Origin: Azospirillaceae bacterium
GTDB taxonomy: Bacteria > Pseudomonadota > Alphaproteobacteria > Azospirillales > Azospirillaceae
Direction of reading: 5' to 3'
NCBI GenBank assembly: GCA_031291675.1
Contig: JARLIO010000068.1
Coordinates: 1-42,070 of the forward strand
Length of the DNA: 42,070 bases
The translations under genes and the position numbers were made by a program. Positions 279 through 28,910 of the stretch are shown here, in pieces (the stretch's first letter is position 1; every line of letters begins with the position of its first letter). A model generated the notes under the pieces. That model had not been told where the DNA came from and did not search any database. It was given only the letters and a program-made list of their open reading frames with translations.

Positions 279-2099
279 TCAGGACGCGCCATAGAGTGGC
301 GAATTGCCCAGGTCCTCGGTGCGCGCCCGTTCGAGTTCCTGGCTGTAGCGTCGCAGCGCGTAGGCCTCGGTGAGATAGCCGATGATCGCGCCGCCCTCAT
401 GGTCTTCGGCGTCAGCGAGGACGGGCAGGGTTTCAAGTTCGGCTTCCGCGAATTTGTCGAGCGCGCTGCGGATATTCTGGTCCGGCCGCAGGAATATCCG
501 CTTGCCATGGTGCAGATCGCCCGCGGTCATGCCCGCAATCGTGGCGTCCAGATCCGCATTGTGAACATCGACCATGTTGACCATGCCGACATAATGGCCA
601 TCACGACCGATGGCAAACAGCCGTTTGGCAGAACCCAGGGGAAATCGCCGGCGCAACTCCGTCAGCGGCAGATCCGCCGGCACCAGATGGGGGTCGCGCC
701 GCATCAGGCGGCCGACCGTCAGGTCGCGAATCCAGCTGACGTCATGCGGACTGCGGACCGGTACGCCGCGCAGATGAAAGCGCCAGGTGGCGAAGCTGTA
801 GCCGAAAAGCTGACGGGTCAGGACAGCCGACAGGACGACCCCGATCATGACCCCGAGCGCGGCGTAGAAATCGGCGGTCATCTCAACGACAAGCATGATC
901 ATGGTCACCGGCGCGCCGACGATCGAGGCGGCGACCGCGCTCATCCCGACCAGCAGATACGCCGTCGTGTCGACATGGAGTTGCGGCGCGACCAGGGTCA
1001 GCACCCCGGCAAAGGCGCTGCCATACAGGCCGCCGATAAACAGTGACGCGCTGAACAAACCGCCGCGGAAGCCCGAACCGACCGAGATTGCTGAGGCGGT
1101 CATTTTGAAGCCCAGCAGCGACAGCAACAGCAGGGGTGACCAGCCGGCCTCGATCGTCTGCTGGATCGCCCCGTGACCTGCGCCGAGAACCTGGGGATGG
1201 ACGATCGCGAGTAGGCCGACCAGCATGCCACCCGCGGCCGGGCGCAGCCAGCCCGGGATGCCGCGCCGGCGAAACCATTGTTCGACCCCGGTGACCCCCA
1301 TCATCGTGATGACGCCCAGACCGGCGGCGCCGATGCCAACGGCCGCGAACAATACATAGTCGCTGCCGGCGATGCGCACCGGGTCGGCAAGGGCGAAAAT
1401 CGGCGCGCCGCCCAGGACCCGGTGCTGGACAAAGGTTGCGGCCAGTGCTGCGACGCTGACGGGTGCCAGCAAGGCCGGGGCATAGCTGCCGATCACCAGT
1501 TCAAAGGCGTAGAAGGCGCCGGCCAGGGGCGCGTTGAATGCGGCGGCGATCGCCGCCGCGGCGCCGCAACCGACCATCATCCGCAGATCACCGCGGCGCA
1601 GGCGCAACAGCTTGCCGAATTTCGACGACAGGCCGGCACCGATCTGGGTATAAGCGGCCTCCATCCCGACCGAGGCGCCGAACCCGGCGGACAACACGGT
1701 CATCAGAACCAGGTTGACGCTGTCGTTCAGCGACAGTCGTCCGCCATGGAGCGCGTTGGCCTCGATCGGATCGACGACCTCGCGAGGGCGAAAGCGCTTG
1801 ATGACCAGGGATGCCAGACCGACGATGAAACCCCCGACCGTCGGCAACAAGACCAGGCGCCACTGTGGCACCAGATCGGAACCTGCCGAGAGATGGCTGC
1901 CGCGTCCCAGTCCGAATAGCGTCTCATGGGCCAACTGGACGATGAGTTGCAGGAGCGTAACCAGCGCCCCGACCACGCAGCCCAGCACCGCGGCAATCGC
2001 GATCTGGGCATTTTCGGTATCGCGGATCCCGCGAAGGGTCCAGGTCCAGAGGCGGAGCCAACGAGATCGTCGCGGCGCGGTTTTGCTGACGGCGGTCAT
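279..2099 (-). CDS. CLC-family chloride channel/antiporter with CBS domains
   Basis: Integral membrane protein of 606 aa from the ATG at 2099; an upstream in-frame start at 2213 would add an Arg-rich, unlikely leader. Many hydrophobic helices cover residues ~30-430 and a soluble tail with two CBS-like repeats covers ~455-590, the usual layout of bacterial CLC proteins with regulatory CBS domains. The filter motifs depart from the canonical ones. The GREGP loop reads GMEAA near residue 147 (the gating Glu position is kept), the GxFxP loop reads GLFSA near 347-351, and no GSGIP is seen before the first. Ion selectivity and channel-versus-exchanger mode therefore cannot be read from the sequence. 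It stands alone, reading toward the Rpn gene. Confidence 0.85.
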   Translation of the reverse strand: MTAVSKTAPRRSRWLRLWTWTLRGIRDTENAQIAIAAVLGCVVGALVTLLQLIVQLAHETLFGLGRGSHLSAGSDLVPQWRLVLLPTVGGFIVGLASLVIKRFRPREVVDPIEANALHGGRLSLNDSVNLVLMTVLSAGFGASVGMEAAYTQIGAGLSSKFGKLLRLRRGDLRMMVGCGAAAAIAAAFNAPLAGAFYAFELVIGSYAPALLAPVSVAALAATFVQHRVLGGAPIFALADPVRIAGSDYVLFAAVGIGAAGLGVITMMGVTGVEQWFRRRGIPGWLRPAAGGMLVGLLAIVHPQVLGAGHGAIQQTIEAGWSPLLLLSLLGFKMTASAISVGSGFRGGLFSASLFIGGLYGSAFAGVLTLVAPQLHVDTTAYLLVGMSAVAASIVGAPVTMIMLVVEMTADFYAALGVMIGVVLSAVLTRQLFGYSFATWRFHLRGVPVRSPHDVSWIRDLTVGRLMRRDPHLVPADLPLTELRRRFPLGSAKRLFAIGRDGHYVGMVNMVDVHNADLDATIAGMTAGDLHHGKRIFLRPDQNIRSALDKFAEAELETLPVLADAEDHEGGAIIGYLTEAYALRRYSQELERARTEDLGNSPLYGAS

Positions 2100-16231: not shown

Positions 16232-16481
16232 GCCCCGTCCATTTCTATCCAAGTCCGATGCTCATGCCCGATATCGAAAAGCGGTGCCACTCTTAACACA
16301 GCGGCCCCGGTTGGTGACCGACTGTTGCGAAGATCCATTGGACCCGGGCAGGGATGTTGCGGCCCGGCCACATCATGACGAGACACCACCGCCGCCGTGC
16401 GAGTAACCCACCACAAATTCTGAGTGCAATCACAAATTTCAGGTTGTCATGGTCGTGATATAGGGACGCCCTTACGCCTGG

Positions 16482-16781
16482 TCAACGGGCGCGGCGCTTG
16501 TCGGAAACGGGCTCATGATCCCACTCATCTTCGCAGAGCCCTCCACCTCCGGGTGTTTCGGTGACGAAGACATCTCTCTTGTGGAGATTGACAGTGCCGA
16601 TTGCGGTGAGCACGGTTCGGCTGGCGACGGTCCGTTCCACATGGTTGAGGCAGATCGCGCCCGCCGGGCCGCCTTGCAGCCCGAAAACCCGACCTGTCGT
16701 CGATTTCAGTCCTCCGGCCAGAAGTCCGGATTCCTCATTTGGTCGAATGACCACGGACAGGCGGCCGGGAAGGTCGCCTCG
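16482..16781 (-). pseudogene. Hydantoinase B / oxoprolinase C-terminal remnant
   Basis: An open minus-strand stretch bounded upstream by a stop near 16782 encodes LSVVIRPNEESG, then GRVFGLQGGPAGAICLN, then TVNLHKRDVFVTETPGGGGL. This matches the C-terminal part of HyuB-type proteins (pattern: FGGxPGAxG..lN ... l..GDvxrIeTPGGGGyGDP). The family is normally >500 aa and only about 100 residues survive; no upstream part is seen. Such enzymes hydrolyse hydantoins or oxoproline together with HyuA. Read as a relic, it indicates rearrangement at the left edge of the metabolic island. Confidence 0.6.
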
Positions 16782-16815
16782 TCAAGATCTGTTTCCCGCT
16801 CGCTCACGCACCGTT

Positions 16816-16875
16816 CTGAGAGAGGTTGGTCTGAGAGAGGTTGGTCTGAGAGAGGCTGGTCTGAGAGAGGCTGGC
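16816..16875. repeat. 15-bp tandem repeat, four copies
   Basis: Four head-to-tail copies of CTGAGAGAGG(T/C)TGG(T/C) lie at 16816, 16831, 16846 and 16861. The first two are identical, and the last two carry a T-to-C change at the same position. The unit length keeps reading frame, but no real gene covers it. Confidence 0.9.
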
Positions 16876-17025
16876 GGTGAGATCCCGTCGGCCTCCTCGC
16901 CCGGAGGGATTTGGCGGTGGCGATTGTCAACAGCGAGTCGGCGCCCCACGCATAGTGCGGAGCGCACCTGTCTTCATTGCAGGTCGGTTGCTCCGGAGCG
17001 CGGCGGCATCCTCACGCCGAACATT

Positions 17026-17041
17026 CTCCAATATTGTTCAA
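17026..17041 (+). promoter_or_regulatory. Copy 1 of the shared 16-bp island box
   Basis: CTCCAATATTGTTCAA lies 57 nt upstream of the preferred GTG start of the UGSC gene. The identical 16-mer is at 19899-19914 upstream of the AraC-type gene, and a close relative is at 21697-21717. Position and repetition suggest an operator, plausibly for the AraC-type protein; the link is inferred. Confidence 0.5.
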
Positions 17042-17098
17042 TAACCGAAAAGCACTTTGCGGCATCATATGGAGACCAAAATAAGGGAGACTATCAAA

Positions 17099-18802
17099 GT
17101 GACTAATGACAACAAATTTGAAACGGTTTGGCCCGGTGGTGCGCCCGCGATTGAGGTATTTTCTCCGGCTCCGCGCCGGCCTTCCGTTGCCGGACTTCGT
17201 ATAGCATTTGTCTGGGACTACTTGTTCAGGGGGGATGAGATTTTTGCAATACTTGAGAGTGCGCTGCGAGACAGATATCCAGACATAACGTTCGTTAGTT
17301 ACGAAATGTTTGGAAATACGCTTGGGTCAAATGATCATCAAGTTCTGGCGACCTTGCCGGAAAAACTGGCTCAGCATGGCGTTGATGTCGTTATTTCAGG
17401 AGTTGGGTGCTGTGGTGCCTGTACACCGGCTGTTGTCAGGGCCAGCTCGGCTATAGAAAAGGCTGGCTATCCCACAGCGTCGCTTGTGTGCGAGGGATTC
17501 GCCGGTCAGGCCCGCGCCGTCTCACCGGGCCTCGGATGTTCCTGGTTACCCATTGTCGAAATGCCTGGCTATGTCGACAGTCTCAGCGACGATGAGCTGC
17601 GGGAGATGATCCTCTCGCACACCGTGGATGCCGTCGTGAAATGCCTCACGTCTGCCCCAATTGCGCAAGATCACAATGCGGAAGAGTTTGATCCTCAAGA
17701 AATCGTGGCTCGCGGGAATTTCAATGAAATCAATGAAATCTATCGAAAAAAGGGGTGGTCGGACAGCCTGCCTGTTGTTCCGCCGACGATCGAAGCCGTT
17801 GAGGCGTTCCTGAGATTTACGAAAGACCCGCTAGACCGTGTGATTGGATCCGTCCAGCCATCAGGCTCAAGGGTGACGATTTGGAACGTTGCCGTAAACG
17901 GCGTGATGGCGGGATGCGCTCCAGAATACATGCCCGTCCTTGTGGCGATCGCGGAGGTGCTGGCGGATCCTGCGTATGGTGTCGAACATAGCGGCGATAC
18001 GACGGGTAGCGACGCTCTCATTCTGCTTAGCGGCCCGGTAATCGAAGCCTTAGGCTTCAACCGGCAGAATGGTGCTTTACGAGAAGGGACCAGGGCAAAC
18101 ACCACCGTCGGCCGCTTTCTCCGCCTGTTCCTGCGGAATGTCGTCGGTTTGCGTCCAGGGGCTGGTGACAAGTCGACGTTTGGCCATGCTGCGCGGATCG
18201 TGCTGGCGGAGCACGAGCCCGAGATTGCAAAGTTGAACTGGACAACCTTTGGAGAGAGGCAAGGTTTTTCGCGGGAGAAAAGCGTTGTGACCATCGCCCG
18301 GTTTACGGGAGATACGGTTGTAGGCTCGATCTATGGCCGAAATCCCGAAGACCTTGCAGCGTACGTTGCAGATGGTCTGGTTCGGCAATGCTCATGGGAG
18401 CTATGCTTCGCAGCCGGTCTTGCGCCGGGCACCCATCGTCCATTGATTGTCATAAGCCCAATGGTTGCCAAAACGCTGGCGAAGGCCGGCGACTCGATCG
18501 AACGATTCCGAGAACGTCTTTATCAGCATGCGCGAATTCCGGCTTGGAAATTTGCGACCTATATTGGAAAATGGTCGAACAATGTCCCTGGCAGAAAGAC
18601 CCTTGGACAGATGCGTGACGAGGGGAATGCCAATGCATTATTTGCCGAAAGCGATGATGAAGACAGGCTGGTTCCGATCGTCGAATGTGCTGAACACATT
18701 CTCATTGCCGTGTCAGGCGATCCCTATCGTTCAAACGCAATCGCGTTTGGCAGCAACGGACTTCACGGCTTTCCTACGAGCAAGGAGATTCACTTAACCT
18801 AA
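17099..18802 (+). CDS. UGSC-family protein (Cys form), two-domain
   Basis: 567 aa from the GTG at 17099, chosen because AAGGGAG lies 9 nt upstream; ATG 17069 and TTG 17057 are in-frame alternatives without a good site. Residues ~15-205 form a domain with VISGVGCCGACTP, where C105-G-A-C108 aligns with the U-G-S-C redox-like motif of the UGSC selenoprotein family, Sec being replaced by Cys. From ~210 a second domain begins KKGWSDSLPVVPPT and includes NAVMAGC-type (VNGVMAGCAPEYMPV) and GDKSTFGHAARIV segments, which I recall as a companion family often encoded separately. Biochemistry is unknown to me. No signal peptide. Base composition is less G+C-rich than neighbours, suggesting transfer. Confidence 0.75.
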   Translation: MTNDNKFETVWPGGAPAIEVFSPAPRRPSVAGLRIAFVWDYLFRGDEIFAILESALRDRYPDITFVSYEMFGNTLGSNDHQVLATLPEKLAQHGVDVVISGVGCCGACTPAVVRASSAIEKAGYPTASLVCEGFAGQARAVSPGLGCSWLPIVEMPGYVDSLSDDELREMILSHTVDAVVKCLTSAPIAQDHNAEEFDPQEIVARGNFNEINEIYRKKGWSDSLPVVPPTIEAVEAFLRFTKDPLDRVIGSVQPSGSRVTIWNVAVNGVMAGCAPEYMPVLVAIAEVLADPAYGVEHSGDTTGSDALILLSGPVIEALGFNRQNGALREGTRANTTVGRFLRLFLRNVVGLRPGAGDKSTFGHAARIVLAEHEPEIAKLNWTTFGERQGFSREKSVVTIARFTGDTVVGSIYGRNPEDLAAYVADGLVRQCSWELCFAAGLAPGTHRPLIVISPMVAKTLAKAGDSIERFRERLYQHARIPAWKFATYIGKWSNNVPGRKTLGQMRDEGNANALFAESDDEDRLVPIVECAEHILIAVSGDPYRSNAIAFGSNGLHGFPTSKEIHLT

Positions 18803-18828
18803 CGAATTTGCCAGAGCAAAATATTGCG

Positions 18829-18848
18829 GTCACCCCGTATGGGGTGAC
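18829..18848 (+). terminator. Hairpin after the UGSC gene
   Basis: Perfect 8-bp stem GTCACCCC/GGGGTGAC with a GTAT loop, 26 nt past the UGSC stop and before the convergent AraC-type gene. There is no T run, so termination may be weak or factor-assisted. Confidence 0.5.
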
Positions 18849-18955
18849 GACCAGCATACTCTCTTAACAGGCACGGGAATTACTGAGATCGCGTGCCTTG
18901 CACGCAGCAGCGAATTGCCACTCGCCAAGTTAAATCGGCAAACGCACGGCCATCT

Positions 18956-19819
18956 TCAGATATCACTAAGAAGCAGCTTGGAGCTTAAATGAGCTTCTGA
19001 TCGTTGCGCTTCAAAGTGAAGGTGATCCTTCCGGAATTTGCCGGGAGTGATACCGGTGACGCGTTTGAAAGCACGCGTCAGGTGGGCCTGATCCGCAAAG
19101 CCCGTAGCCTGCGCAACATCGGCAACCGGGTGGCCTCTCGATAGCATTTCCAGGCATTTCGACAGCCGTCGTTGCGAGTGCCACGCATGCGGAGGCATTC
19201 CGACAATATGAGTGAAGCTCCTCACCAAAAGGTAGCGATCGATACGCGCGAGGTGCGATAGCTCCAAAAGACTGATATTTCGATCGAGGTAAGCAGCCAG
19301 ATACTGCTTGCAGGTCTCGACTGCCCGCACTTCTGTTGGTTTGTAATTCTCCCGTTGCGGCATCGTTGTATGACCTACATAGAACTGTGTGAGCAGGTCG
19401 AGCAGAGCCTGCTCGCGCACGATCGTTGCCGAGCCTTGCAGGCTTCGTAAGAAGGATTTGAGAGCAGCCAATAACGACCGATCGATGATGGTTGTCTCGC
19501 AGTAAAATTGAGAACTGTTACACTGCCGTTTCTCAAGCACGGCGCATGGAATCATGACCGTATGATAAAACCAACCGGATTGGTCGCCGGGATCTGCGGC
19601 GTGGACCTCGTTTGGCGCGACTGCGACAATTGCACCTGCGGAGGCAGCATTGGAGCCGCCGCGGCTTCGCACAACCTGCACGCCATCATTGATCAGCGAA
19701 AGCATCAGACCATCGTGGCTGTGCCGAGGCAGCGCCTGCCGAAAGCGGCCAACGGTGACTTCAATCCCACCGAAGTCATGAAGTTTTAGTGCGCGCGGGT
19801 CGCAATCCAGCGGTGTCAT
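18956..19819 (-). CDS. AraC-family transcriptional regulator
   Basis: 287 aa. The N-terminal half (LKLHDFGGIEVTVGRFRQALPRHSHDGLMLSLI...AIVAVAPNEVHAADP) is an AraC-type cupin effector domain with the typical H-x-H/D pattern. The C-terminal ~100 residues hold two helix-turn-helix motifs: ISLLELSHLARIDRYLLVRSFTHIVGMPPHAW and HPVADVAQATGFADQAHLTRAFKRVTGITPGKFR. It sits between the UGSC and epoxide hydrolase genes and is probably the local activator of the island in response to the transported compound. Two ATGCCTAAAG direct repeats (19866-19886) and the 16-bp box (19899-19914) lie in its upstream region. Confidence 0.92.
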   Translation of the reverse strand: MTPLDCDPRALKLHDFGGIEVTVGRFRQALPRHSHDGLMLSLINDGVQVVRSRGGSNAASAGAIVAVAPNEVHAADPGDQSGWFYHTVMIPCAVLEKRQCNSSQFYCETTIIDRSLLAALKSFLRSLQGSATIVREQALLDLLTQFYVGHTTMPQRENYKPTEVRAVETCKQYLAAYLDRNISLLELSHLARIDRYLLVRSFTHIVGMPPHAWHSQRRLSKCLEMLSRGHPVADVAQATGFADQAHLTRAFKRVTGITPGKFRKDHLHFEAQRSEAHLSSKLLLSDI

Positions 19820-19865
19820 GCCGCTAGATTAGTGACATTGAACAGTCAAAGCAAGTTTTTTAATC

Positions 19866-19886
19866 ATGCCTAAAGTATGCCTAAAG
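19866..19886. promoter_or_regulatory. Direct repeat ATGCCTAAAG x2, 11-bp period
   Basis: Two identical 10-mers start at 19866 and 19877, one helical turn apart, 47-67 nt upstream of the AraC-type start at 19819. Direct repeats in this arrangement are a common AraC-family operator form, so autoregulation is plausible; the binder is inferred. Confidence 0.4.
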
Positions 19887-19898
19887 AGTGGGCACTTC

Positions 19899-19914
19899 CT
19901 CCAATATTGTTCAA
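19899..19914 (+). promoter_or_regulatory. Copy 2 of the shared 16-bp island box
   Basis: CTCCAATATTGTTCAA is identical to 17026-17041. It is about 80 nt upstream of the AraC-type start (minus strand) and about 300 nt upstream of the epoxide hydrolase start. The following AGCTTTC is partly shared with copy 3. Confidence 0.5.
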
Positions 19915-19941
19915 GCTTTCTGTCGTTATCCCGGTCCAACA

Positions 19942-20049
19942 ATAACGAACGGTATGCCGCAGGCGTTGGAGGTGGTGTTCCCGAGGCCCGCCTTGCAGAC
20001 CTGCGTTGTGCATCTGATCGGCAACAGCCTGGACTATTCCAGTTGGGCA
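19942..20049 (+). pseudogene. IS256-family transposase remnant
   Basis: The plus frame here reads ITNGMPQALEVVFPRPA then LQTCVVHLIGNSLDYSSW. This matches the conserved IS256/Mutator transposase block (DGLxGfPeAIxxvFPxtxvQtCiVHLIRnSlxyvs). Only ~36 residues remain and no terminal inverted repeats were recognised. It is a fossil of insertion activity within the island. Confidence 0.75.
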
Positions 20050-20082
20050 GGGGCGATTTGCGGATCAGGACCAGAGGCTGAA

Positions 20083-20105
20083 TCATCCGATCCCGGATCG
20101 GATGA
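20083..20105. promoter_or_regulatory. 23-bp perfect dyad upstream of the epoxide hydrolase gene
   Basis: Arms TCATCCGATCC and GGATCGGATGA flank a single C, a perfect 11-bp inverted repeat centred 114 nt upstream of the ATG at 20208. It could be an operator for a dimeric repressor (TetR/GntR-like) or a hairpin ending leftover transcription from the IS remnant. Confidence 0.45.
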
Positions 20106-20207
20106 AGTGACGCTGGCTTGAATAATGTCATCGTTCGATCCGAACCGGGTTCCGCGGTGACATCGTGTAACCGGAAGCTCCGGCTTATCCGCCGTGGAGG
20201 TAGCAAC

Positions 20208-21347
20208 ATGAAACCATTCGAAGTGACATGGAGCCGAGATGCGATCACCGCCCTGCGGGACAAGATCGGGCGTTATCGTTTCCCCGCTGCGCCCGCCGAC
20301 GCGGGTTGGCGCTATGGCTGCGATCCTGAATTTCTCCGGCAACTGTGCATATTCTGGCAGCACGACTTCGACTTCGAGGGAGCCGCCGCGCGGCTCAACC
20401 GCTTCCCACAGTGGATGGTGCAGATCGATGGGCTCGATCTTCACGCACTGCATGTCGTGGGCGAGGCTGGGGGACGCCGACCGCTGCTACTGACCCATGG
20501 CTGGCCAGGATCGGTCTATGAGTTCTGGCAGGTCATCGAACCGCTCGCCTTTCCATCGCGGTTCGGTGGCCGAGCCGAGGATGCTTTCGACCTCGTCATT
20601 CCTTCGCTTCCGGGTTATGGCTTTTCCGGCAAGCCCGCCGCGCCAACGAGCGCGCGGACGACGGCGCGGTTGTTCCACCAACTCATGCTGGCGTTTGGCT
20701 ATTCGAGCTATTATGCGCAGGGGGGCGATTGGGGGTCTGCGGTCAGCGCCTGGCTCGGGCTCCAGTATCCAGAGGCGGTCAAGGGTATCCACCTCAACTA
20801 CCTGCTGGTGCAGCCGGATGCCGTGCCCGACACCGAGGAGGAAAAGGTCTGGAAGGTGGCTTTCGACGCCAAGCAGGCGGCCCTGGGCGCCTATGCGATG
20901 CTGCACAATACCCGGCCGCTTTCGCTGTCCTATGCGATGGTCGATAATCCGGTCGCCCAGGCGGCCTGGATTGTCGAGCGTTTCCACGATTGGGGCGATC
21001 TCTCGGAACGTTCGTTTGAGGATGTCTTCGGCAAGACGCGACTTCTCACGAACGTTATGATCTATGTCTTGAATGATGCCTTCAACTCGTCCACCTGGTT
21101 CTATGCCGGTGCGATCGAGGAAGCCGCGCGGACCATGCCGACGGGACGTCGTGTCGAAGTTCCAACCGCGTTTACGTGTTATCCGGACCCCAGGATCGCT
21201 GCGCCCCCGCGGTCCTGGGTCGAGCGTGGCTATCATCTGACCCGCTGGGTATCTCAGCCGCGCGGCGGCCACTTCGCCGCGATGGAGGTGCCCGAGTTAT
21301 TCATCAAGGATATCACAGCTTGGGCTGGAAGCTCGCCGCCTGGCTAG
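20208..21347 (+). CDS. Epoxide hydrolase (alpha/beta hydrolase, EHN domain)
   Basis: 379 aa from the ATG at 20208, with GGAGG 7 nt upstream. The N-terminal ~100 residues (MKPFEVTWSRDAITALRDKIG..., DWR-like GWRYGCDPEFLRQLCIFWQHDFDF) form the EHN domain of microsomal-type epoxide hydrolases. HGWPGS (97-102) gives the oxyanion hole, GGDWGS places the nucleophile at D174, and GGHFAAMEVPELF near residue 355 supplies the catalytic His. It opens epoxides to diols through an alkyl-enzyme ester and is cytoplasmic, with no signal peptide. In the island it may process an intermediate of the transported compound. Dehalogenase activity is unlikely given the EHN domain. Confidence 0.92.
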   Translation: MKPFEVTWSRDAITALRDKIGRYRFPAAPADAGWRYGCDPEFLRQLCIFWQHDFDFEGAAARLNRFPQWMVQIDGLDLHALHVVGEAGGRRPLLLTHGWPGSVYEFWQVIEPLAFPSRFGGRAEDAFDLVIPSLPGYGFSGKPAAPTSARTTARLFHQLMLAFGYSSYYAQGGDWGSAVSAWLGLQYPEAVKGIHLNYLLVQPDAVPDTEEEKVWKVAFDAKQAALGAYAMLHNTRPLSLSYAMVDNPVAQAAWIVERFHDWGDLSERSFEDVFGKTRLLTNVMIYVLNDAFNSSTWFYAGAIEEAARTMPTGRRVEVPTAFTCYPDPRIAAPPRSWVERGYHLTRWVSQPRGGHFAAMEVPELFIKDITAWAGSSPPG

Positions 21348-21482
21348 TGGGGTACGTCATCGAATTTGATACCGTCGCCCTCGCGAATGCGGGGCCCAGA
21401 GCCGCAAGCTCCGAACGATGGCGCCTGTGGCCCTGGATGTCCGCGTTCGCGAGCATGACGGTGGCGAGAGATCCTCTGATTG

Positions 21483-21624
21483 TCAGCCGCTCAAGAGCGA
21501 AAGCATCAGCCCGTCGTGGAAGGGGCCGGGGCAGAACATGGTCGCGATAGCGTCCCGCCCCAACCTCTATCCCGGCCAAATCATGTCGCTTGAGGCCGCG
21601 GGGAATGCGGTCTTGGCTTTCCAT
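21483..21624 (-). pseudogene. Frameshifted remnant of a second AraC-type regulator
   Basis: From an ATG at 21624 the minus strand encodes MESQDRIPRGLKRHD then LAGIEVGAGRYRDHVLPRP. This lines up with the start of the intact regulator (MTPLDCDPRALKLHD, FGGIEVTVGRFRQALPR). One extra base in the run at 21522-21525 shifts the frame; correcting it continues as FHDGLMLSLLSG (intact copy: SHDGLMLSLINDG) and then hits TGA. The cupin remainder and both HTH motifs are missing. The remnant also keeps the island box about 75 nt upstream, as the intact gene does. Confidence 0.75.
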
Positions 21625-21696
21625 GTCGCGAGCGTCGGGCGGAGGAATCGAGGAAGCAAGCGCACCAGGCCGCGTCAGCCAGGGTTCCGCAAATAA

Positions 21697-21717
21697 TCCA
21701 ATAACGTTCAAGCTCTC
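21697..21717 (+). promoter_or_regulatory. Copy 3 (diverged) of the island box
   Basis: TCCAATAACGTTCAAGCTCTC matches 18 of 21 positions of 19900-19920. It lies 73 nt upstream of the dead regulator's start, nearly the same distance as copy 2 from the intact regulator, and about 330 nt upstream of the liv operon. Confidence 0.45.
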
Positions 21718-22046
21718 GCGGTCTTTCTCAGGCAATTGAATGATCTCAGCAAGACAGCGCTCCGTAGCTTCAAGGATGCAGCTTCACGAATTCTTACGAA
21801 AGTCCCGCGCCTCGGGGCGACCGCGGCCCTTGCCGCATGGGGCGTTGGCCCGAAAAGGGTGGGCCCGACTTCACCAACTTTCTCAAGCCAACCGTGTCGC
21901 GTTGGCGTTCGGAACGGCCTTTGATGTCGCCATAAATGCGACTTCCGCAATTGGCCGGCGCAAGTGATTGCGACCAAATGGCTGGAGCGCACTGTTAGTT
22001 GTGCTCGTCCATCCACGATAATCTAAACGGTCAAAAGGGAAGACAA

Positions 22047-23159
22047 ATGCGATCTGGAACGACGAAGACTCTCGCGCTTGTTGCGGTGTTCAGCAGCATG
22101 GCGTCGTTCGCTGCGGCGGCCGATACGATCAAGATCGGCTTCGTCGCGCCGATCACGGGGGCGGCGGCTTCCTTCGGTAAGGAGACCGTTGGGGCGGTCC
22201 GCATGGTGGTGGCGAAGACCAATGCCGGCGGCGGCGTGCTCGGAGAGAAGATCGTTTTGGTCGAGACCGACGACGCCTGCGATCCGACACAGGGGACCGC
22301 GGCGGCCAGCAAGTTGGTGTCAAGCGGAGTCATCGCGGTTGTCGGGGGGATGTGTTCGGGCGCGGTGGTGCCGGCGCTGAAGATCTACGGCGACGCGCAT
22401 GTCCCGTTCGTGATTGTGGCAGCCAATTCGACGAAGATTGTCGCCGCCAACCCTGGCAATGCCTTCCTTGTCAATTCCACGGGGGATGCCCAGACGCTGA
22501 CGGCGATGACTCTCTTCGCTCAGAAAGGGATCAAAACCCTTGCCGTCGTCGACGAGGGCGATGCCTTTTCCGCGGACCTTTCGGCGATCGCGCAGACGCA
22601 ATTCAAGGCATCCGGCGGGAAAGTCGTGGACGCGGAGACGACGGCCAAGGGCGAGCAGGATTTTTCAGCACTTGTGACGCGCATCACGGCCGCCAAGGCT
22701 GATGCCGTGTACTGGACCGCCTATCAGGATGGCGGCGCCCTCCTGGTAAAGCAGCTTCGCCGCTCGGGTTACCAAGGGCTCATCGCGCTGAGTGACGGCT
22801 CCAATGCGCCTGACCTTTTTACGGTGGTGGGCTCGGCGGTGAATGGCGCCTACGTCTTCGGGCCGACGCCGCTGAAGGATCTGCCGCGCGGCGCCGCGTT
22901 CTCGGCCGATTTTGCCGCTGCGACGGGCGATGCGCCGGGCAACTATTCGGCGCTGGCCTATGACGCTGCCGAGGTGTTGCTCGACGCCATAAAGGCGGCG
23001 GGAACGACAGAGGGCGAGGCGATCGTGAAGGCGCTGAAGGGGACCCGGTACGAAGGCATTGCCGGCCCCATCGCATTTACTGAGAAGAATACCCTTGTCG
23101 GTTCGAATTTCATCGCTCTCGTCGCCCATGGCGGCGCCCTGTCGGTCCCCCAGAAGTGA
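22047..23159 (+). CDS. livK: Branched-chain-amino-acid-type ABC transporter substrate-binding protein
   Basis: 370 aa from the ATG at 22047. A signal peptide of ~24 residues (TLALVAVFSSMASFAAAA) precedes DTIKIGFVAPITGAAASFGKE, the family signature (Peripla_BP_6). VVGGMCSGAVVPALKIYGDAHVPFV, DEGDAFSADLSAIAQTQFKASGG and YQDGGALLVKQLRRSGYQGLI are typical of the two lobes. It binds the ligand in the periplasm for the LivHMGF membrane complex encoded downstream. Members of this family bind amino acids, amides, urea or aromatic acids, so the ligand is not fixed by homology. Confidence 0.92.
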   Translation: MRSGTTKTLALVAVFSSMASFAAAADTIKIGFVAPITGAAASFGKETVGAVRMVVAKTNAGGGVLGEKIVLVETDDACDPTQGTAAASKLVSSGVIAVVGGMCSGAVVPALKIYGDAHVPFVIVAANSTKIVAANPGNAFLVNSTGDAQTLTAMTLFAQKGIKTLAVVDEGDAFSADLSAIAQTQFKASGGKVVDAETTAKGEQDFSALVTRITAAKADAVYWTAYQDGGALLVKQLRRSGYQGLIALSDGSNAPDLFTVVGSAVNGAYVFGPTPLKDLPRGAAFSADFAAATGDAPGNYSALAYDAAEVLLDAIKAAGTTEGEAIVKALKGTRYEGIAGPIAFTEKNTLVGSNFIALVAHGGALSVPQK

Positions 23160-23238
23160 GCAAACCGCGGGCTGGTTCTCCCCGGCCGGCGGCTTTCACG
23201 ACTGCGAGCCAATCCCCCCCAATCACGAGGGAACACGC

Positions 23239-24144
23239 ATGGGCTTTTTCCTGCAGCAATTGATGAATGGCCTGATACTTGGCTCATTCTATGCTCTTAT
23301 TGCTCTCGGTTACACGATGGTCTTCGGAGTCTTGAAACTTCTGAACTTCGCCCACGGCGATATTTACATGGTGGGTGGTTTCGTCGGCCTGCTCATCCTG
23401 AAGCTTGGTTCAAGTTGGCTTGGGAGCGGTTGGCTCGGGGTGGTGGTCGCGCTGTTTGGCTCGGCCGCGCTTGTCGGAGCGCTCGGGATGCTCATCGAGC
23501 GCGTGGCTTACCGGCCGCTGCGGCAGGCACCGCGCCTGTCGGTTCTGATCACCGCGCTGGCGGCCTCAATGGTGCTGAACAGCGCCGTTCTCGCGTTGAC
23601 CGGGGGGCGTCCGGTCGCGTTCCCGGCGGACCTGGGGTTTGTCGGCTACGACCTTGGTCCCATCCATATCTCGGTCATCCAGATGGCCTTGCTGGTCAGC
23701 ACCCTCATTCTCATGCTGGTGCTGGAACTTTTCGTCTCCAGGACCCAATACGGTCGCGCGATGCGGGCGGTCTCTTACGATATGGTGGCAAGTCGCCTGA
23801 TGGGAATTGACGTCAGCCAAATCGTGAGCCTGACATTCTTCCTGGGATCCGCCCTCGCGGCGATCGGCGGTGTGTTCGCTGGGTCCTACTACGGAAGCCT
23901 TCACTTCTTCATGGGCTTCATCATGGGCCTGAAGGCATTCACCGCGGCAGTGATCGGTGGGATCGGCAGCATCCCCGGCGCCATGCTCGGCGGGCTGACA
24001 CTGGGTTTGCTCGAGACGTTCGGATCTTCGATACCCTTCATTGGCTCGGAATGGCGAGACGTCGCCGTATTCGGCGCGCTGATCTTTTTCCTCGTTTTGA
24101 AACCGACGGGGATACTGGGCAAGACCATGGTGGAGCGGATTTGA
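23239..24144 (+). CDS. livH: ABC transporter permease, LivH type
   Basis: 301 aa from the ATG at 23239 with GAGGG upstream. Signature start FLQQLMNGLILGSFYALIALGYTMVFGVLKLLNFAHGD, eight or so hydrophobic helices, and the late cytoplasmic loop GLKAFTAAVIGGIGSIPGAMLGGLTLGLLE (EAA-like coupling region). It is one of two permeases of a hydrophobic/branched-chain amino acid uptake system in the inner membrane. It is followed by livM with a one-base gap. Confidence 0.93.
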   Translation: MGFFLQQLMNGLILGSFYALIALGYTMVFGVLKLLNFAHGDIYMVGGFVGLLILKLGSSWLGSGWLGVVVALFGSAALVGALGMLIERVAYRPLRQAPRLSVLITALAASMVLNSAVLALTGGRPVAFPADLGFVGYDLGPIHISVIQMALLVSTLILMLVLELFVSRTQYGRAMRAVSYDMVASRLMGIDVSQIVSLTFFLGSALAAIGGVFAGSYYGSLHFFMGFIMGLKAFTAAVIGGIGSIPGAMLGGLTLGLLETFGSSIPFIGSEWRDVAVFGALIFFLVLKPTGILGKTMVERI

Positions 24145-24145
24145 T

Positions 24146-25138
24146 ATGCTGGACAAGTCTCCTTCGGAGGCAGCGGTCGAGCCCAGGGGGACGCTCGCAA
24201 CCGATGCTCGCGGTGTTTGGCGCGGGCGCGGAGGCCGGGCAAATATGCTAGGCGGTTCCGTACTGCTAGCCGCTTGCGTGCTTCCCTTTGTCGCCGATCC
24301 CTACGTGTTGGAAGTGGCCACGATGGCGCTTCTTTACATCGTTCTTTGCCTCGGGCTGAACGTCGTGGTCGGCTATGCAGGGTTGCTCGATCTCGGCTAC
24401 GCCGCGTTCTTCGCGGTCGGCGCCTATACGACCGGCATTCTCACCAGCCAGTTCGACTGGAGCTTCTGGGCCACCCTTCCGGTGGCCGCTGTCGCGGCGG
24501 CGGTCGCCGGTGTTGTGATCGGCATGCCGACTCTCCGGCTGCGCAGCGACTATCTGGCGATCGTCACCCTCGGCTTCGGTGAAATCATTCGGCTGATCGC
24601 CCGGAACCTTACGATCACCGGCGGTGCCAGCGGGCTTTACGGGATCGAGCGGCCCGTGCTGTTCGGCATCAGGTTGGATCGGAACATAGACTTCTATTTC
24701 ATGTTCCTGATCCTCGTTGTTCTCGTCATCTATGTCAGCGACAGCCTCAGCCACTCGCGCATCGGCCGCGCCTGGCTCTATGTCCGCTTTGACGAGGACG
24801 CCGCGGCCGGCATCGGGATCAACCGTGTCGCCGTGAAGCTTTATGCCTATATCGTCGGTGCGGTGATCGCGTCGCTGGCGGGAACGATCTTTGCTGTGAA
24901 GATGACGGCGGTTTCCCCCGAGAGCTTCACTTTTTCGCAATCCCTGGCGATATTGCTCGGGGTCGTTCTGGGCGGCATGGGCAAGATCCCCGGGGTCATC
25001 TTGGGGGCGATCGCGATGACGCTTCTGCCCGAGCTGATGCGGGACGCGGGGATCTACCGGCCGCTGGTCACGGCCGTGGGGCTTCTCGTGCTGATGCTGT
25101 TCCGGCCGCAAGGCCTCTGGCCGGACGGGAGGGCATGA
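24146..25138 (+). CDS. livM: ABC transporter permease, LivM type
   Basis: 330 aa. After a ~33-residue polar leader (MLDKSPSEAAVEPRG...) come the family blocks LGLNVVVGYAGLLDLGYAAFFAVGAYTTGIL, GMPTLRLRSDYLAIVTLGFGEIIRLIARN and VVLGGMGKIPGVILGAIAMTLLPEL. It forms the heterodimeric channel with LivH. A later start at an internal ATG (24245) is possible because the leader is not conserved in my recollection of the family. Starts one base past the livH stop. Confidence 0.93.
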   Translation: MLDKSPSEAAVEPRGTLATDARGVWRGRGGRANMLGGSVLLAACVLPFVADPYVLEVATMALLYIVLCLGLNVVVGYAGLLDLGYAAFFAVGAYTTGILTSQFDWSFWATLPVAAVAAAVAGVVIGMPTLRLRSDYLAIVTLGFGEIIRLIARNLTITGGASGLYGIERPVLFGIRLDRNIDFYFMFLILVVLVIYVSDSLSHSRIGRAWLYVRFDEDAAAGIGINRVAVKLYAYIVGAVIASLAGTIFAVKMTAVSPESFTFSQSLAILLGVVLGGMGKIPGVILGAIAMTLLPELMRDAGIYRPLVTAVGLLVLMLFRPQGLWPDGRA

Positions 25139-25141
25139 AGG

Positions 25142-25903
25142 ATGACGATCCTGGAGGTCAAACAGGTCTCGCTGCGGATCGGCGGTCTCAGTGTCCTGAC
25201 CGACGTATCGTTCAGCCTCAACAAGGGCGCGATCCACAGTTTGATCGGGCCGAACGGTGCCGGCAAGACATCGCTCTTCAATTGCATTACGGGCTTCTAC
25301 CGTCCGACGGCGGGGGCCATCCGCCTTGACGGAACCTCCCTGGCGCGGGTGACGCCGCATCGGGTGGTCCGCCTGGGGCTCGCGCGGACCTTCCAGAATA
25401 TCCGCCTCTTCAAGGAGATGACGGTTCTCGAAAATGTCATGGCAGGTTGTCATTGCCGCAGCGAGGGAAGCATCGTTTCGGCGCTTCTGCGGACGCGTGC
25501 CCATCGCCGGGAAGAGGAAAGCATCCGGGAGATAAGCCGCCGGTGGCTTGACTTCGTGGGACTGCGCGCGAAGGAGCAGCGGCGTGCCGGGGACCTGCCT
25601 TATGGCGATCGGCGGCGCGTGGAATGGGCCCGGGCTCTGGCGTCGGAACCGAAGTTGTTGATGCTGGACGAACCCGCGGCAGGGCTTACGCATACCGAAA
25701 AGGCGGAGCTGATCGAGCTTCTCCGTCGGATTCGTGGTCAGGGAACGACGATCTTGCTGATCGAGCACGACATGCCCCTGATCATGCAGGTCTCGGATCA
25801 CGTCGTGGTAATGGATCACGGTCAGAAGATCGCCGACGGAGAGCCCGCGGCTGTGCGCAGAAACCCCCAGGTCATCGAAGCCTATCTTGGCGTGGAGGAG
25901 TGA
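25142..25903 (+). CDS. livG: ABC transporter ATPase, LivG type
   Basis: 253 aa cytoplasmic ATPase. Walker A GPNGAGKTS near residue 40; signature-region LPYGDRRRVEWARAL (a degenerate LSYG/LSGGQ, normal for LivG); Walker B LLMLDEPAAGLTHTE; switch His in IEHDM. C-terminal GEPAAVRRNPQVIEAYLGVEE is typical of Liv-type ATPases. It pairs with LivF to power uptake. Starts 3 nt after livM ends. Confidence 0.94.
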   Translation: MTILEVKQVSLRIGGLSVLTDVSFSLNKGAIHSLIGPNGAGKTSLFNCITGFYRPTAGAIRLDGTSLARVTPHRVVRLGLARTFQNIRLFKEMTVLENVMAGCHCRSEGSIVSALLRTRAHRREEESIREISRRWLDFVGLRAKEQRRAGDLPYGDRRRVEWARALASEPKLLMLDEPAAGLTHTEKAELIELLRRIRGQGTTILLIEHDMPLIMQVSDHVVVMDHGQKIADGEPAAVRRNPQVIEAYLGVEE

Positions 25904-25904
25904 G

Positions 25905-26624
25905 ATGCCCGACACCGTTCTCGACGTGCAGAACCTCTCGGCTGGATATGGCGGCATCCGGGTGCTGCATGACATTTCGCTGAAAGTGAAAAAGGGGCGC
26001 GTCGTCGCTGTCCTGGGGACCAACGGGGCCGGAAAAACCAGCCTTCTGCGCGCGTTGTCGGGGCTGATCGCCGCCGAGCAAGGCATTATTCGACTGATGC
26101 AGCGCGAGATCACCAATATTCCGGCGCATAAGCTTCCGGCGGCCGGCATGGTCCACGTGCCGGAAGGGCGCCACATTTTCGGCACGATGACGATCCGGGA
26201 GAATCTGGAGCTTGGCGCCTTCACCGTCGCGGATGCCCGAACCCGCCACGAAAGGATCGACAAGGTCTTCGAAATCTTTCCGATTCTTGCCGAACGCCAG
26301 GGGCAGGATGCACACTACCTTTCGGGGGGGCAGCAACAGATGCTGGCGATTGGGCGTGGGCTCATGGCCGCTCCCACACTGCTTTTGCTGGACGAGCCGT
26401 CAATGGGGCTTGCGCCGATAATGGTCAAGGAAATCATGGTCATTATCGATCGCCTACGCGAGTCCGGCATCACCATTCTTTTGGTTGAGCAGAACAGCCG
26501 CGTTGCCCTCAGGCACGCGGATTATGGTTATCTGTTGGAACTCGGTCGAATTGTCCGCGAAGGCTGCGCCGCGGAACTCGCGCGGGACGACTCTATCGTC
26601 AGAACCTATCTCGGCGAGGTTTGA
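25905..26624 (+). CDS. livF: ABC transporter ATPase, LivF type
   Basis: 239 aa from the ATG at 25905, one base past the livG stop, with GGAGGAG upstream. GTNGAGKTSLLRALSGL (Walker A), YLSGGQQQMLAIGRGLM (signature), LLLLDEPSMGLAP (Walker B) and VEQNSR (switch region, Gln/His variant typical of LivF). It is the last gene of a five-gene operon 22047-26624. No T-rich terminator was seen after it. Confidence 0.94.
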   Translation: MPDTVLDVQNLSAGYGGIRVLHDISLKVKKGRVVAVLGTNGAGKTSLLRALSGLIAAEQGIIRLMQREITNIPAHKLPAAGMVHVPEGRHIFGTMTIRENLELGAFTVADARTRHERIDKVFEIFPILAERQGQDAHYLSGGQQQMLAIGRGLMAAPTLLLLDEPSMGLAPIMVKEIMVIIDRLRESGITILLVEQNSRVALRHADYGYLLELGRIVREGCAAELARDDSIVRTYLGEV

Positions 26625-26862
26625 GAGAGGCAGGATCGCACGGCGCACCGCCACCGATTTCACCGGGTATCATGGGCGCCGTCGCACGTCACGAAAGTCA
26701 CCCGTCACCCGCCATTCCGGGCTCGCCCGGTCCGCCTGGCAACAAATCTACCGCACGAAAGGACAAATTCGCTCGTCTCGCGGGCGTCATCGCGCTATCT
26801 TCGGTCATGGGCGAGGCTGCCCACGAAAGAATATTGCGTTATCGTAAGGAAGCGTCGAAGAA

Positions 26863-28113
26863 ATGGTCGATTGGGACGATCACTATGCCGGGCGTGTCAG
26901 CCGCATGGCCGGGTCCGAAATCCGGGAGCTGCTCAAGCTGCTCGATCAACCGGATATCATCTCCTTTGCCGGCGGGATTCCCGACCCGACACTGTTTCCC
27001 CTGAACGAGATCGCCGCGGCGCATGCCGCGATCCTGGCCGATCCGGCCCGGGGCGGCGCCGCTTTGCAATATTCGGTCAGCGAGGGCTATCTGCCGCTGC
27101 GCGAATGGCTGGTCGATTACATGGCGACCTTGGGCGTTCCCTGTACCCCCGACAATATCGTTATCACCAACGGCTCGCAGCAGGCGCTGGATTTCCTGGG
27201 CAAGCTGTTTATCGGCCCGGGCGACAAGGTGCTGGTGTCGCGCCCGACCTATCTGGGGGCGCTTCAGGCCTTCAATCCCTACGAACCGACCTACGACGTG
27301 TTGCCGGGCCCCGACAATAATCGCACGGTCGAGAGTTTTGGCGTCGCGGGCGGTGCCTCGGGGCCGCGGCTCGGCTATGTCATGCCCGAATTCCGCAATC
27401 CCACCGGGACCTCCTTGACCCTCGCCGAGCGCCATGAGCTGCTGGCGGTCGCCGACGCGCTTGATCTGCCGCTGATCGAAGACAGCGCCTATGAAAAACT
27501 GCGCTATGACGGCGAAGCCGTGCCCTCGCTGCTGGCGCTTGAGGCGGCGCGCACCGGCGGGGTCGATCACGGGCGGGTGATCTATTGCGGAACCTTCTCC
27601 AAGACGATCGTGCCGGCCTTGCGTGTCGGCTGGATCGTCGGTCCGCGCAGCGTGATCCGCAAGCTGGTGCTCACCAAGCAGGCCAGCGACCTGCATAGCA
27701 GCACCCTCAACCAGATGGTGATGCATGAGGTCGCGTCGCGGACCCTGATGGCGCAGGTCGGCAATATCCGCGCCAGCTACAAGGCGCGGCGCGATGCGAT
27801 GCTGAGCGCGCTCGAGCGCTACATGCCCGACGGCGTCACCTGGACCCGGCCGGAAGGCGGGATGTTCATTTGGGTGACCTTGCCCGATGGCTTCGACAGC
27901 GGCGTGCTGTTGCGTCAGGCGATCACCGAGGCCCGGGTTGCCTTTGTCCCGGGTCGGGCCTTCTTTGCCGACGGCTCCGGACAAAACACCCTGCGGCTGA
28001 GCTTCTCGCTCGCCGCCCCCGACAAGGGAACCGAAGGCATCCGCCGCCTCGGCACCCTGTTGTGCCGCCTGATTGAGGAGGTGCAGCCGGTGGCTGCCGC
28101 CGCTCGCGCCTGA
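26863..28113 (+). CDS. PLP-dependent aminotransferase (2-aminoadipate/aromatic type, class I)
   Basis: 416 aa fold-type I enzyme. DIISFAGGIPDPTLFP is the start motif of the LysN/ARO8/MocR-like subgroup. NGSQQALDFLGKLF, PEFRNPTGTSLTLAER (Asn/Pro cofactor contact) and DSAYEKLRYDG (Asp-x-x-Tyr) precede the PLP Lys in CGTFSKTIVPALRVGW; the C-terminal Arg lies in TLRLSFSLA. It moves amino groups between an amino acid and 2-oxoglutarate. It follows the transporter operon after ~240 bases but base usage is native-like, so membership in the island is doubtful. Confidence 0.9.
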   Translation: MVDWDDHYAGRVSRMAGSEIRELLKLLDQPDIISFAGGIPDPTLFPLNEIAAAHAAILADPARGGAALQYSVSEGYLPLREWLVDYMATLGVPCTPDNIVITNGSQQALDFLGKLFIGPGDKVLVSRPTYLGALQAFNPYEPTYDVLPGPDNNRTVESFGVAGGASGPRLGYVMPEFRNPTGTSLTLAERHELLAVADALDLPLIEDSAYEKLRYDGEAVPSLLALEAARTGGVDHGRVIYCGTFSKTIVPALRVGWIVGPRSVIRKLVLTKQASDLHSSTLNQMVMHEVASRTLMAQVGNIRASYKARRDAMLSALERYMPDGVTWTRPEGGMFIWVTLPDGFDSGVLLRQAITEARVAFVPGRAFFADGSGQNTLRLSFSLAAPDKGTEGIRRLGTLLCRLIEEVQPVAAAARA

Positions 28114-28126
28114 CCGCCGCCCCGGG

Positions 28127-28696
28127 TCAGCGTCCGGTCGCGCTGCGCGGCCGGTCGCGCCCGGCGGTCACGCTGTGCCACCAGGCCTGCAAAGCGCCGG
28201 GGTCGGGCGTAATCGCGGTGCCGTAACCCCCGCAGAAGCGGGTCCAGGGCTCGACCATCGTTCGGGCGACCGCGGTCAGCATCGGGACGGCTTCGCTGGC
28301 GGCCCGGTTGAATTCCGACAGCAGGCCGGACCCGGTGCTTTCCAACTTGCCAAAGCGGTTGATGATGACAAGATCACAGCCATCGTCGATAGCGCGCTGG
28401 ACGACCAGGCTGGCCGCGACGATCCCCGCGGGGTCGAGATGGCAGGACTCGGAACCGCGGCCCAGATCCTGTCTGATATTGATGATGTCACCGGTGCGCA
28501 GGTCCTCGACCACCATGGTCGGGGCGCCGCCAGCATCGGGACTTTTGCGCTGAACGATGCCGCCGACCCGCCAGCCCTGGTCACGAAGCGACCGGGCAAA
28601 CCCCGCCAACAGCGCGTCGACGTCCAGCCCGTCACGGCAGACGAGATAGCCCAGCGGGATGTCGAAGTCCGGTTCGCTTAACGCGGTGCTTTCCAT
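28127..28696 (-). CDS. DUF2478 protein
   Basis: 189 aa. The pattern GYLVCRDGLDVDALLAGFARSLR, GWRVGGIVQRK, CHLDPAGIVAASLVVQRAIDDGCDLVIINRFGKLES and FCGGYG corresponds to the DUF2478 family as I know it, often found near molybdate transport or molybdoenzyme genes and thought to be NTPase-like (THEP1-related). No molybdenum gene is nearby here. A classical Walker A is not evident. It is convergent with the aminotransferase gene, 13 nt apart. Confidence 0.75.
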   Translation of the reverse strand: MESTALSEPDFDIPLGYLVCRDGLDVDALLAGFARSLRDQGWRVGGIVQRKSPDAGGAPTMVVEDLRTGDIINIRQDLGRGSESCHLDPAGIVAASLVVQRAIDDGCDLVIINRFGKLESTGSGLLSEFNRAASEAVPMLTAVARTMVEPWTRFCGGYGTAITPDPGALQAWWHSVTAGRDRPRSATGR

Positions 28697-28910
28697 ACAG
28701 CCTGTCCCGGTTGGCCAATTTCACGGGAAAACCCCGATGTTCACCAGCGCCGTTTCCCGGTTGTGGCAGGGATCGCGCGGCCCATCAGCGGCAAGTATAG
28801 CGCGACGCCCGCCGGGGCGTACCCAAAAACCGTGATCGGCGTGCGGGAATTCGCTGCTGTTGGCATTGTCGTGACGGCACAATGCGCCGGGTTGGACAGG
28901 GAGGACGCGC

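Follow-up and report, generated by a model that had tools for sequence, protein, structure and literature searches.

The window, by which we mean the whole stretch of 42,070 nucleotides analysed here from an Azospirillaceae bacterium, contains the dead 5′ stub of an AraC-type regulator gene (AraC′) with an 18-bp box upstream of it. The stub and the intact AraC-type regulator encoded nearby are members of one small AraC subfamily. In the likeliest history, which we consider rather probable, two regulator-box units were brought together and one of them was cut at a dispersed repeat. The pseudogene itself is an ordinary truncated gene, mostly a matter of ordinary genome decay, but its junction is informative. 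The following features are referred to below.

17057–18802, plus strand: gene of a UGSC-domain protein, convergent with the regulator, as in all five relatives
18956–19819, minus strand: intact AraC-type regulator (AraC_binding, residues 24–140; HTH_18, residues 191–264)
19899–19916, minus strand: diverged box with three mismatches, 79 nt upstream of the intact regulator
20208–21347, plus strand: gene of the epoxide hydrolase family, on the other side of the box from the intact regulator
21355–21487, no strand: dispersed palindromic repeat of about 133 bp, its right edge cut and fused to the regulator remnant
21488–21624, minus strand: 5′ remnant of the AraC-type regulator gene AraC′, with ATG at 21624, about 45 of 288 codons and one frame break within 21522–21531
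21631–21659, minus strand: promoter position of the remnant (TTGCTT, 17 nt, GACGCT), from conservation only
21696–21713, minus strand: box GCTTGAACGTTATTGGAT, with the same sequence as in loci L011, L036 and L037, located 333 nt before livK and 71 nt before the remnant ATG
22047–23159, plus strand: livK-type substrate-binding protein, first gene of the liv operon
23059–26624, plus strand: livHMGF, two permeases and two ATPases; the livH start is uncertain, probably near 23239
26863–28113, plus strand: PLP-dependent aminotransferase gene, after the liv operon

Remnant of a Second AraC-Type Regulator Gene

A tblastn search of the window with the intact regulator protein finds the remnant in two pieces: 21624–21526, starting at Met1 (55% identity over 33 aa), and, in a shifted frame, 21530–21489 (64% over 14 aa). 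Both pieces come under an E-value of 2.9e-5, while other matches in the window, the intact gene itself aside, have E-values of 0.19 or worse. The regulators of five relatives (loci L011, L012, L036, L037, and L038) match the same site with E-values of 2.0e-8 to 2.5e-11. These values, with the intact protein and with all five relatives, indicate that the remnant is real rather than a chance match. An earlier sequence-only reading of this DNA had aligned about 45 codons, including the start, with the intact regulator, and had proposed comparing the two proteins across the frame shift; the search bears out the alignment from Met1, and the similarity of the shifted-frame remnant is significant.

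Sequence similarity and the common Met start place the remnant in the AraC subfamily of the intact gene. The C-terminal double helix-turn-helix domain is absent from it, the sequence beyond 21488 being occupied by the repeat and the hydrolase gene. AraC′ is dead because everything after about codon 45 is missing, including the DNA-binding domain (residues 191–264 in the intact protein). The rest of AraC′ was not found in its own genome, where the 11 other matches are only 21–34% identical.

The frame break is real in the assembly: the column near 21522–21531 is lacking in the intact gene and in all five relatives. The sequence-only reading had placed a single extra base in the run at 21522–21525, with a stop following the break. 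A TGA is indeed present in the shifted frame, at 21483–21485, but it lies inside the dispersed repeat and not in regulator sequence. Death of AraC′ by point mutation, that is by frame break and stop, is therefore rejected, and the frame break is secondary in the loss of the gene. The unshifted frame of the remnant stays open to 21313 (103 aa) and has no Pfam match at E 1.

Second-codon positions of the remnant differ from those of the relatives at 5–8 of 32 sites, compared to 0–4 among the relatives themselves, an excess such as would be expected after loss of function.

The 18-bp Box and the Promoter Region

The box is present in the upstream regions of all seven regulators (five relatives, intact gene, and remnant). 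In the relatives it is located 58–83 nt upstream of the ATG, with 0–2 mismatches (n = 5); the remnant (71 nt) and the intact gene (79 nt) both fall within this range, and their boxes lie at nearly equal upstream distances, as the sequence-only reading had stated. The remnant box agrees with the pattern read from the relatives at all 18 positions, and the box of the intact gene at all but three; no box arose in 100 shuffles. Six genomes together contain 14 sites with at most three mismatches to the box, seven of them upstream of the seven regulators; the other seven all have three mismatches, and two of these are in the own genome and one in L012. A reversed control pattern has two matches, both in genome G463. 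The exact box was not found in the loci of distant matches (L013–L023 and L063).

Among the columns conserved in at least four of the five relatives, the remnant keeps 17/17 in the box, 22/28 between the box and the ATG, 86/100 in the coding part, and 1/5 upstream of the box. Comparison of the box (17/17) with the box-to-ATG and coding columns taken together (108/128; Fisher p 0.068) weakly suggests that the box has been kept beyond the background in the remnant.

Hexamers similar to TTGCTT and TAAGCT recur downstream of the box. Where the remnant has GACGCT, four of the five relatives have TAAGCT and the fifth has CAAGTT. The TAAGCT-like hexamer lies 5–6 nt from the ATG, a spacing that suggests a leaderless transcript. 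A scan of positions 19800–22100 for promoters and terminators with a generic consensus yielded no sites, so the promoter positions are based on conservation only.

The 333 bp between the box and livK (21714–22046) contain no recognised gene or promoter, and a 102-aa minus-strand frame within them has no Pfam match at E 1.

Junction at a Dispersed Palindromic Repeat

In the stretch 21348–21486, the window repeat shares 93% identity with a copy located in contig C12 of its own genome. Besides the window copy, five copies, with 83–94% identity, are present in 814,836 sampled bases of the genome; the copy loci besides the window are L061 (531–664), L073, L091, L101, and L107. Simple scaling from this sample gives about 36 copies in the 5.87 Mb genome. 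With DNA parameters, the stretch 21348–21486 folds into a long hairpin (z −2.85 vs. shuffles).

At the point where the window copy switches to regulator sequence, GACGCG follows in all five other copies of the repeat, and the similarity to regulators ends at the same edge, 21487. Since the cut edge of the repeat is where the remnant stops, the gene was evidently cut by a rearrangement at the repeat. A DNA search with positions 21340–22046 gave no match in a plasmid collection at E 0.01, and a search of 16400–28800 for RNA elements gave no Rfam match at E 0.1. The 20-base core of the repeat has no exact match in viral contigs, and no tRNA gene is present in the window.

Conserved Unit of the Relatives

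The relatives derive from a scan of a genome-contig collection, which gave two loci, and from a search at E 1e-50 in 296 genomes of the family of the first one, of which five matched, those two included; at most eight candidates were scored per genome. Among 82 genomes of the own family, the one match at E 1e-45 is the own gene, and 11 others at E 1e-30 have about 30–33% identity. In a class sample of 385 genomes, only the own genome and one match with 34% identity were found at E 1e-40. The AraC subfamily passes no NCBIfam cut-off.

All five relatives share one unit, made up of a binding protein gene, the box, the AraC regulator, and, convergent with the latter, a UGSC gene. In each of them the binding protein gene is divergent from the regulator, and its product is assigned to Peripla_BP_6 by Pfam (L011 and L012) or by tblastn (the other three). 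The binding proteins are 75–97% alike, and in L011 and L036 the box is 119 nt from the binding protein gene. Liv-type permeases and ATPases gave no match at E 1e-5 in the searched stretches around the five units. Locus L012 has a second box, GCTTGAATGTTCTTGGAG, at 1953–1970 (minus strand), with three mismatches; it precedes an AMP-ligase gene by about 500 bp and has no intact regulator alongside. A very weak AraC helix-turn-helix-like fragment occurs at 1580–1509 of this locus (48% over 27 aa, E 0.026 in 7 kb), and the second box possibly marks another dead regulator whose box was kept.

In the window, the intact regulator retains its convergent UGSC gene, with a product 68–76% identical to those of the relatives. 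This gene is the only UGSC match in the own genome, so that no second one is left beside the remnant. The UGSC protein has 581 aa, of which only residues 25–198 form the UGSC domain, above the Pfam cut-off and with 54 vs. 125 bits in NCBIfam; outside these residues it has no Pfam match at E 0.001.

The divergent binding protein gene of the relatives has no counterpart in the window. The livK product gives no match to the relatives' binding proteins at 1e-3, the alignments covering about 190 residues at 24–26% identity (E 0.05–0.11), and no remains of the usual binding protein gene were found between the box and livK. Nor was a close orthologue of this protein found in the own genome, where the best match (51%) is in contig C12.

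Neighbouring Genes and Composition

The nearest relatives found for the liv operon are loci L025, L026, L066, and L067 (48–54% identity for LivK, 62–73% for the permeases). An intact second regulator beside livK, for which the sequence-only reading had suggested looking in relatives, was not encountered: no regulator of this AraC subfamily is present in any of the four loci within the stretches read, and the AraC′–livK pairing may thus be recent or accidental. A fifth, more distant liv locus, L027 from Streptomyces (LivK 39%), shows no annotated AraC gene over the part that was read.

An epoxide-hydrolase-family gene occurs in three of the four liv relatives (L025, L026, and L066), with 37–39% identity. 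The closest hydrolases, with 62–64% identity, are plasmid ones of Roseomonas and Methylobacterium, and in the two of these plasmid regions that were read no liv or AraC genes are annotated. The hydrolase may or may not be a long-standing partner of the liv genes.

GC3 is 0.56–0.58 in the UGSC gene and the intact regulator, 0.72–0.83 in the hydrolase, liv, and aminotransferase genes, and 0.76–0.82 in six flanking genes, blocks that would agree with different origins. In the relatives, the same two genes, UGSC and regulator, range from 0.57 to 0.78. The remnant has GC3 of 0.61 over 31 codons, too short a stretch to assign to a block. The compositional boundary lies between the intact regulator and the hydrolase and not at the repeat; therefore block boundary and junction do not coincide.

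Surviving Regulator and Possible Control of livK

The DNA-binding domain of the intact regulator is identical to those of the relatives at 70–78 of 100 columns (77–78% for four of the five and 70% for the fifth), and the N-terminal domain at 73–85 of 165. The second recognition helix, which we place from knowledge of the AraC/MarA family, is identical to that of three relatives and agrees at 12 of 14 positions with the other two; the first helix agrees at 11–13 of 15. With a conserved DNA-binding domain and a more diverged sensor domain, the intact regulator probably still reads the box, possibly in answer to another ligand. Its preference may have shifted, since its own box has drifted at three positions. 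If it still reads the box, its targets could include both copies, on the hydrolase side as well as on the livK side, and service of the livK box by this survivor is plausible.

According to this weaker part of the proposed history, the box would have been kept since the survivor still binds it, controlling livKHMGF across the box. The full form of the proposal is a capture of the regulon, in which a survivor with a changed sensor would have acquired the operator of a distant relative, now dead, after the repeat-associated fusion; judged from sequence, we regard this as tentative and rather doubtful. If it were true, a complete liv transporter would be controlled by a switch that in other genomes is turned towards a binding protein gene.

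The contrary reading, that the box at 21696–21713 is an inert leftover and livKHMGF is outside the control of the survivor, is compatible with the other histories, and we see the chances for and against it as balanced. The retention of the box (Fisher p 0.068) is compatible with recent gene death, the distance of 333 nt to livK compares with 119 nt to the binding protein gene of L011 and L036, and the liv relatives are without this regulator. What argues for a function is that all 18 positions of the box are kept while the box-to-ATG region keeps only 22 of 28 conserved columns, and that the box is oriented towards livK as it is towards the binding protein gene in the relatives.

Origin of the Remnant

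The sequence-only reading had taken the stub for a second copy of the intact gene. However, the remnant is closer to regulators in four other genomes than to its neighbour. The protein identity of its first-frame piece is 79% to L037, 73% to L011, 71% to L012, 70% to L036, and 58% to L038, compared to 55% to the neighbour; in another alignment, restricted to the first 30 residues, it is 53% to L038 and 56% to the neighbour over 27 residues. The DNA identity is 63.4% to the intact gene and 66.7–77.5% to the five relatives (76–78% to L011, L036, and L037), so that the remnant is not nearer to the intact gene than to outside genes, as a recent tandem duplicate would be. Of 43 remnant residues, with alignment columns 33 and 34 around the frame break left out, 25 agree with both the relatives and the neighbour, 10 only with the majority of the relatives (the neighbour has a gap at one of these), none with the neighbour only, and eight with neither. 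In a tree of 141 columns, the longest end branch (0.49) is that of the neighbour, and the remnant lies nearest L011; the tree has no starred branch, and three of its four inner branches are open.

A simple duplicate of the intact regulator is disfavoured by these identities and by the shared residues (10 vs. 0), with p-AU of 0.14, and thus no rejection, for a clade of intact gene and remnant. A local tandem duplication, in which the regulator and its box were doubled in this lineage, the intact copy evolved fast and the other died, would account for the adjacency of the two genes on the same strand, the similar spacing of their boxes, and the p-AU value. It would also fit the intact regulator, which looks over-diverged relative to its UGSC partner (61–63% identity to L011, L012, L036, and L037 for AraC, 73–76% for UGSC) and differs from each relative at 9 of 31 second-codon positions. 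The higher DNA identity of the remnant to outside genes, its residues in common with the relatives' majority, and the three changes in the intact box, where the remnant box has none, argue against a duplication, and we regard it as unlikely. A contig misjoined at the repeat, with AraC′ whole elsewhere in the organism, is improbable: the junction coincides exactly with a repeat (about 133 bp, other copies 83–94% identical), and the genome is a 99-contig draft, but this genome, listed as 97.71% complete, holds no other AraC′ piece at the expected identity, the remnant has separate signs of decay (frame break, GACGCT, and second-position changes of 5–8/32 vs. 0–4), and the repeat copies presumably differ enough for ordinary reads to tell them apart.

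We therefore prefer the joining of two units. The unit of the UGSC gene and the intact regulator and a unit with AraC′ would have come to adjoin. The repeat would have been the site of a deletion or recombination that fused AraC′, at about codon 45, to the hydrolase side, so that AraC′ lost its sensor core and DNA-binding domain. Later or parallel decay would account for the frame break and for the absence of the usual −10 hexamer. Two regulator-plus-box units, one by the hydrolase and one by the transporter, were already proposed in the sequence-only reading; the two starts with boxes at the distance typical of the subfamily stand, while the hydrolase and liv genes are not the usual partners. 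The ranking of the remnant within the subfamily, the box (7/7), the unit (5/5), the GACGCG of the repeat (5/5), the GC3 blocks, and the missing rest of AraC′ count for the joining of units. The p-AU of 0.14, the exception of L038 (58%/53%), the GC3 boundary off the junction, and the p of 0.068 for the box count against it, as does, for control of livK, the longer distance from the box.

Comparison with Known Systems

The locus provides a clean junction that shows how two regulator-controlled modules can merge: a dispersed repeat marks the breakpoint, one regulator is dead, and an operator-like box is exactly preserved before a transporter. The 18-bp box is now available for an AraC subfamily that lacks an NCBIfam cut-off pass, which makes a binding test simple.

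The window repeat, which we liken to REP- or MITE-like dispersed palindromic elements, is short, is an imperfect palindrome, and has several diverged copies in one genome; unlike such elements, it is without an assigned family, 21340–22046 having no plasmid match at E 0.01 and 16400–28800 no Rfam match at E 0.1. As in an ordinary truncated regulator pseudogene, the remnant is a 5′ fragment with a frame break, a decayed promoter position, and a missing DNA-binding part. Unlike in such a pseudogene, the box in front of it has been preserved exactly, and 1.7 kb away lies an intact relative whose box is of the same type.

Divergent units of an AraC-family regulator and a transport gene are a general arrangement. 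The window resembles the unit of binding protein, box, AraC regulator, and UGSC protein of L011, L012, L036, L037, and L038 in the regulator, the position of the box, and the convergent UGSC gene. It differs in the gene across the box, which is an epoxide hydrolase gene in the intact unit and a complete liv operon in the dead one.
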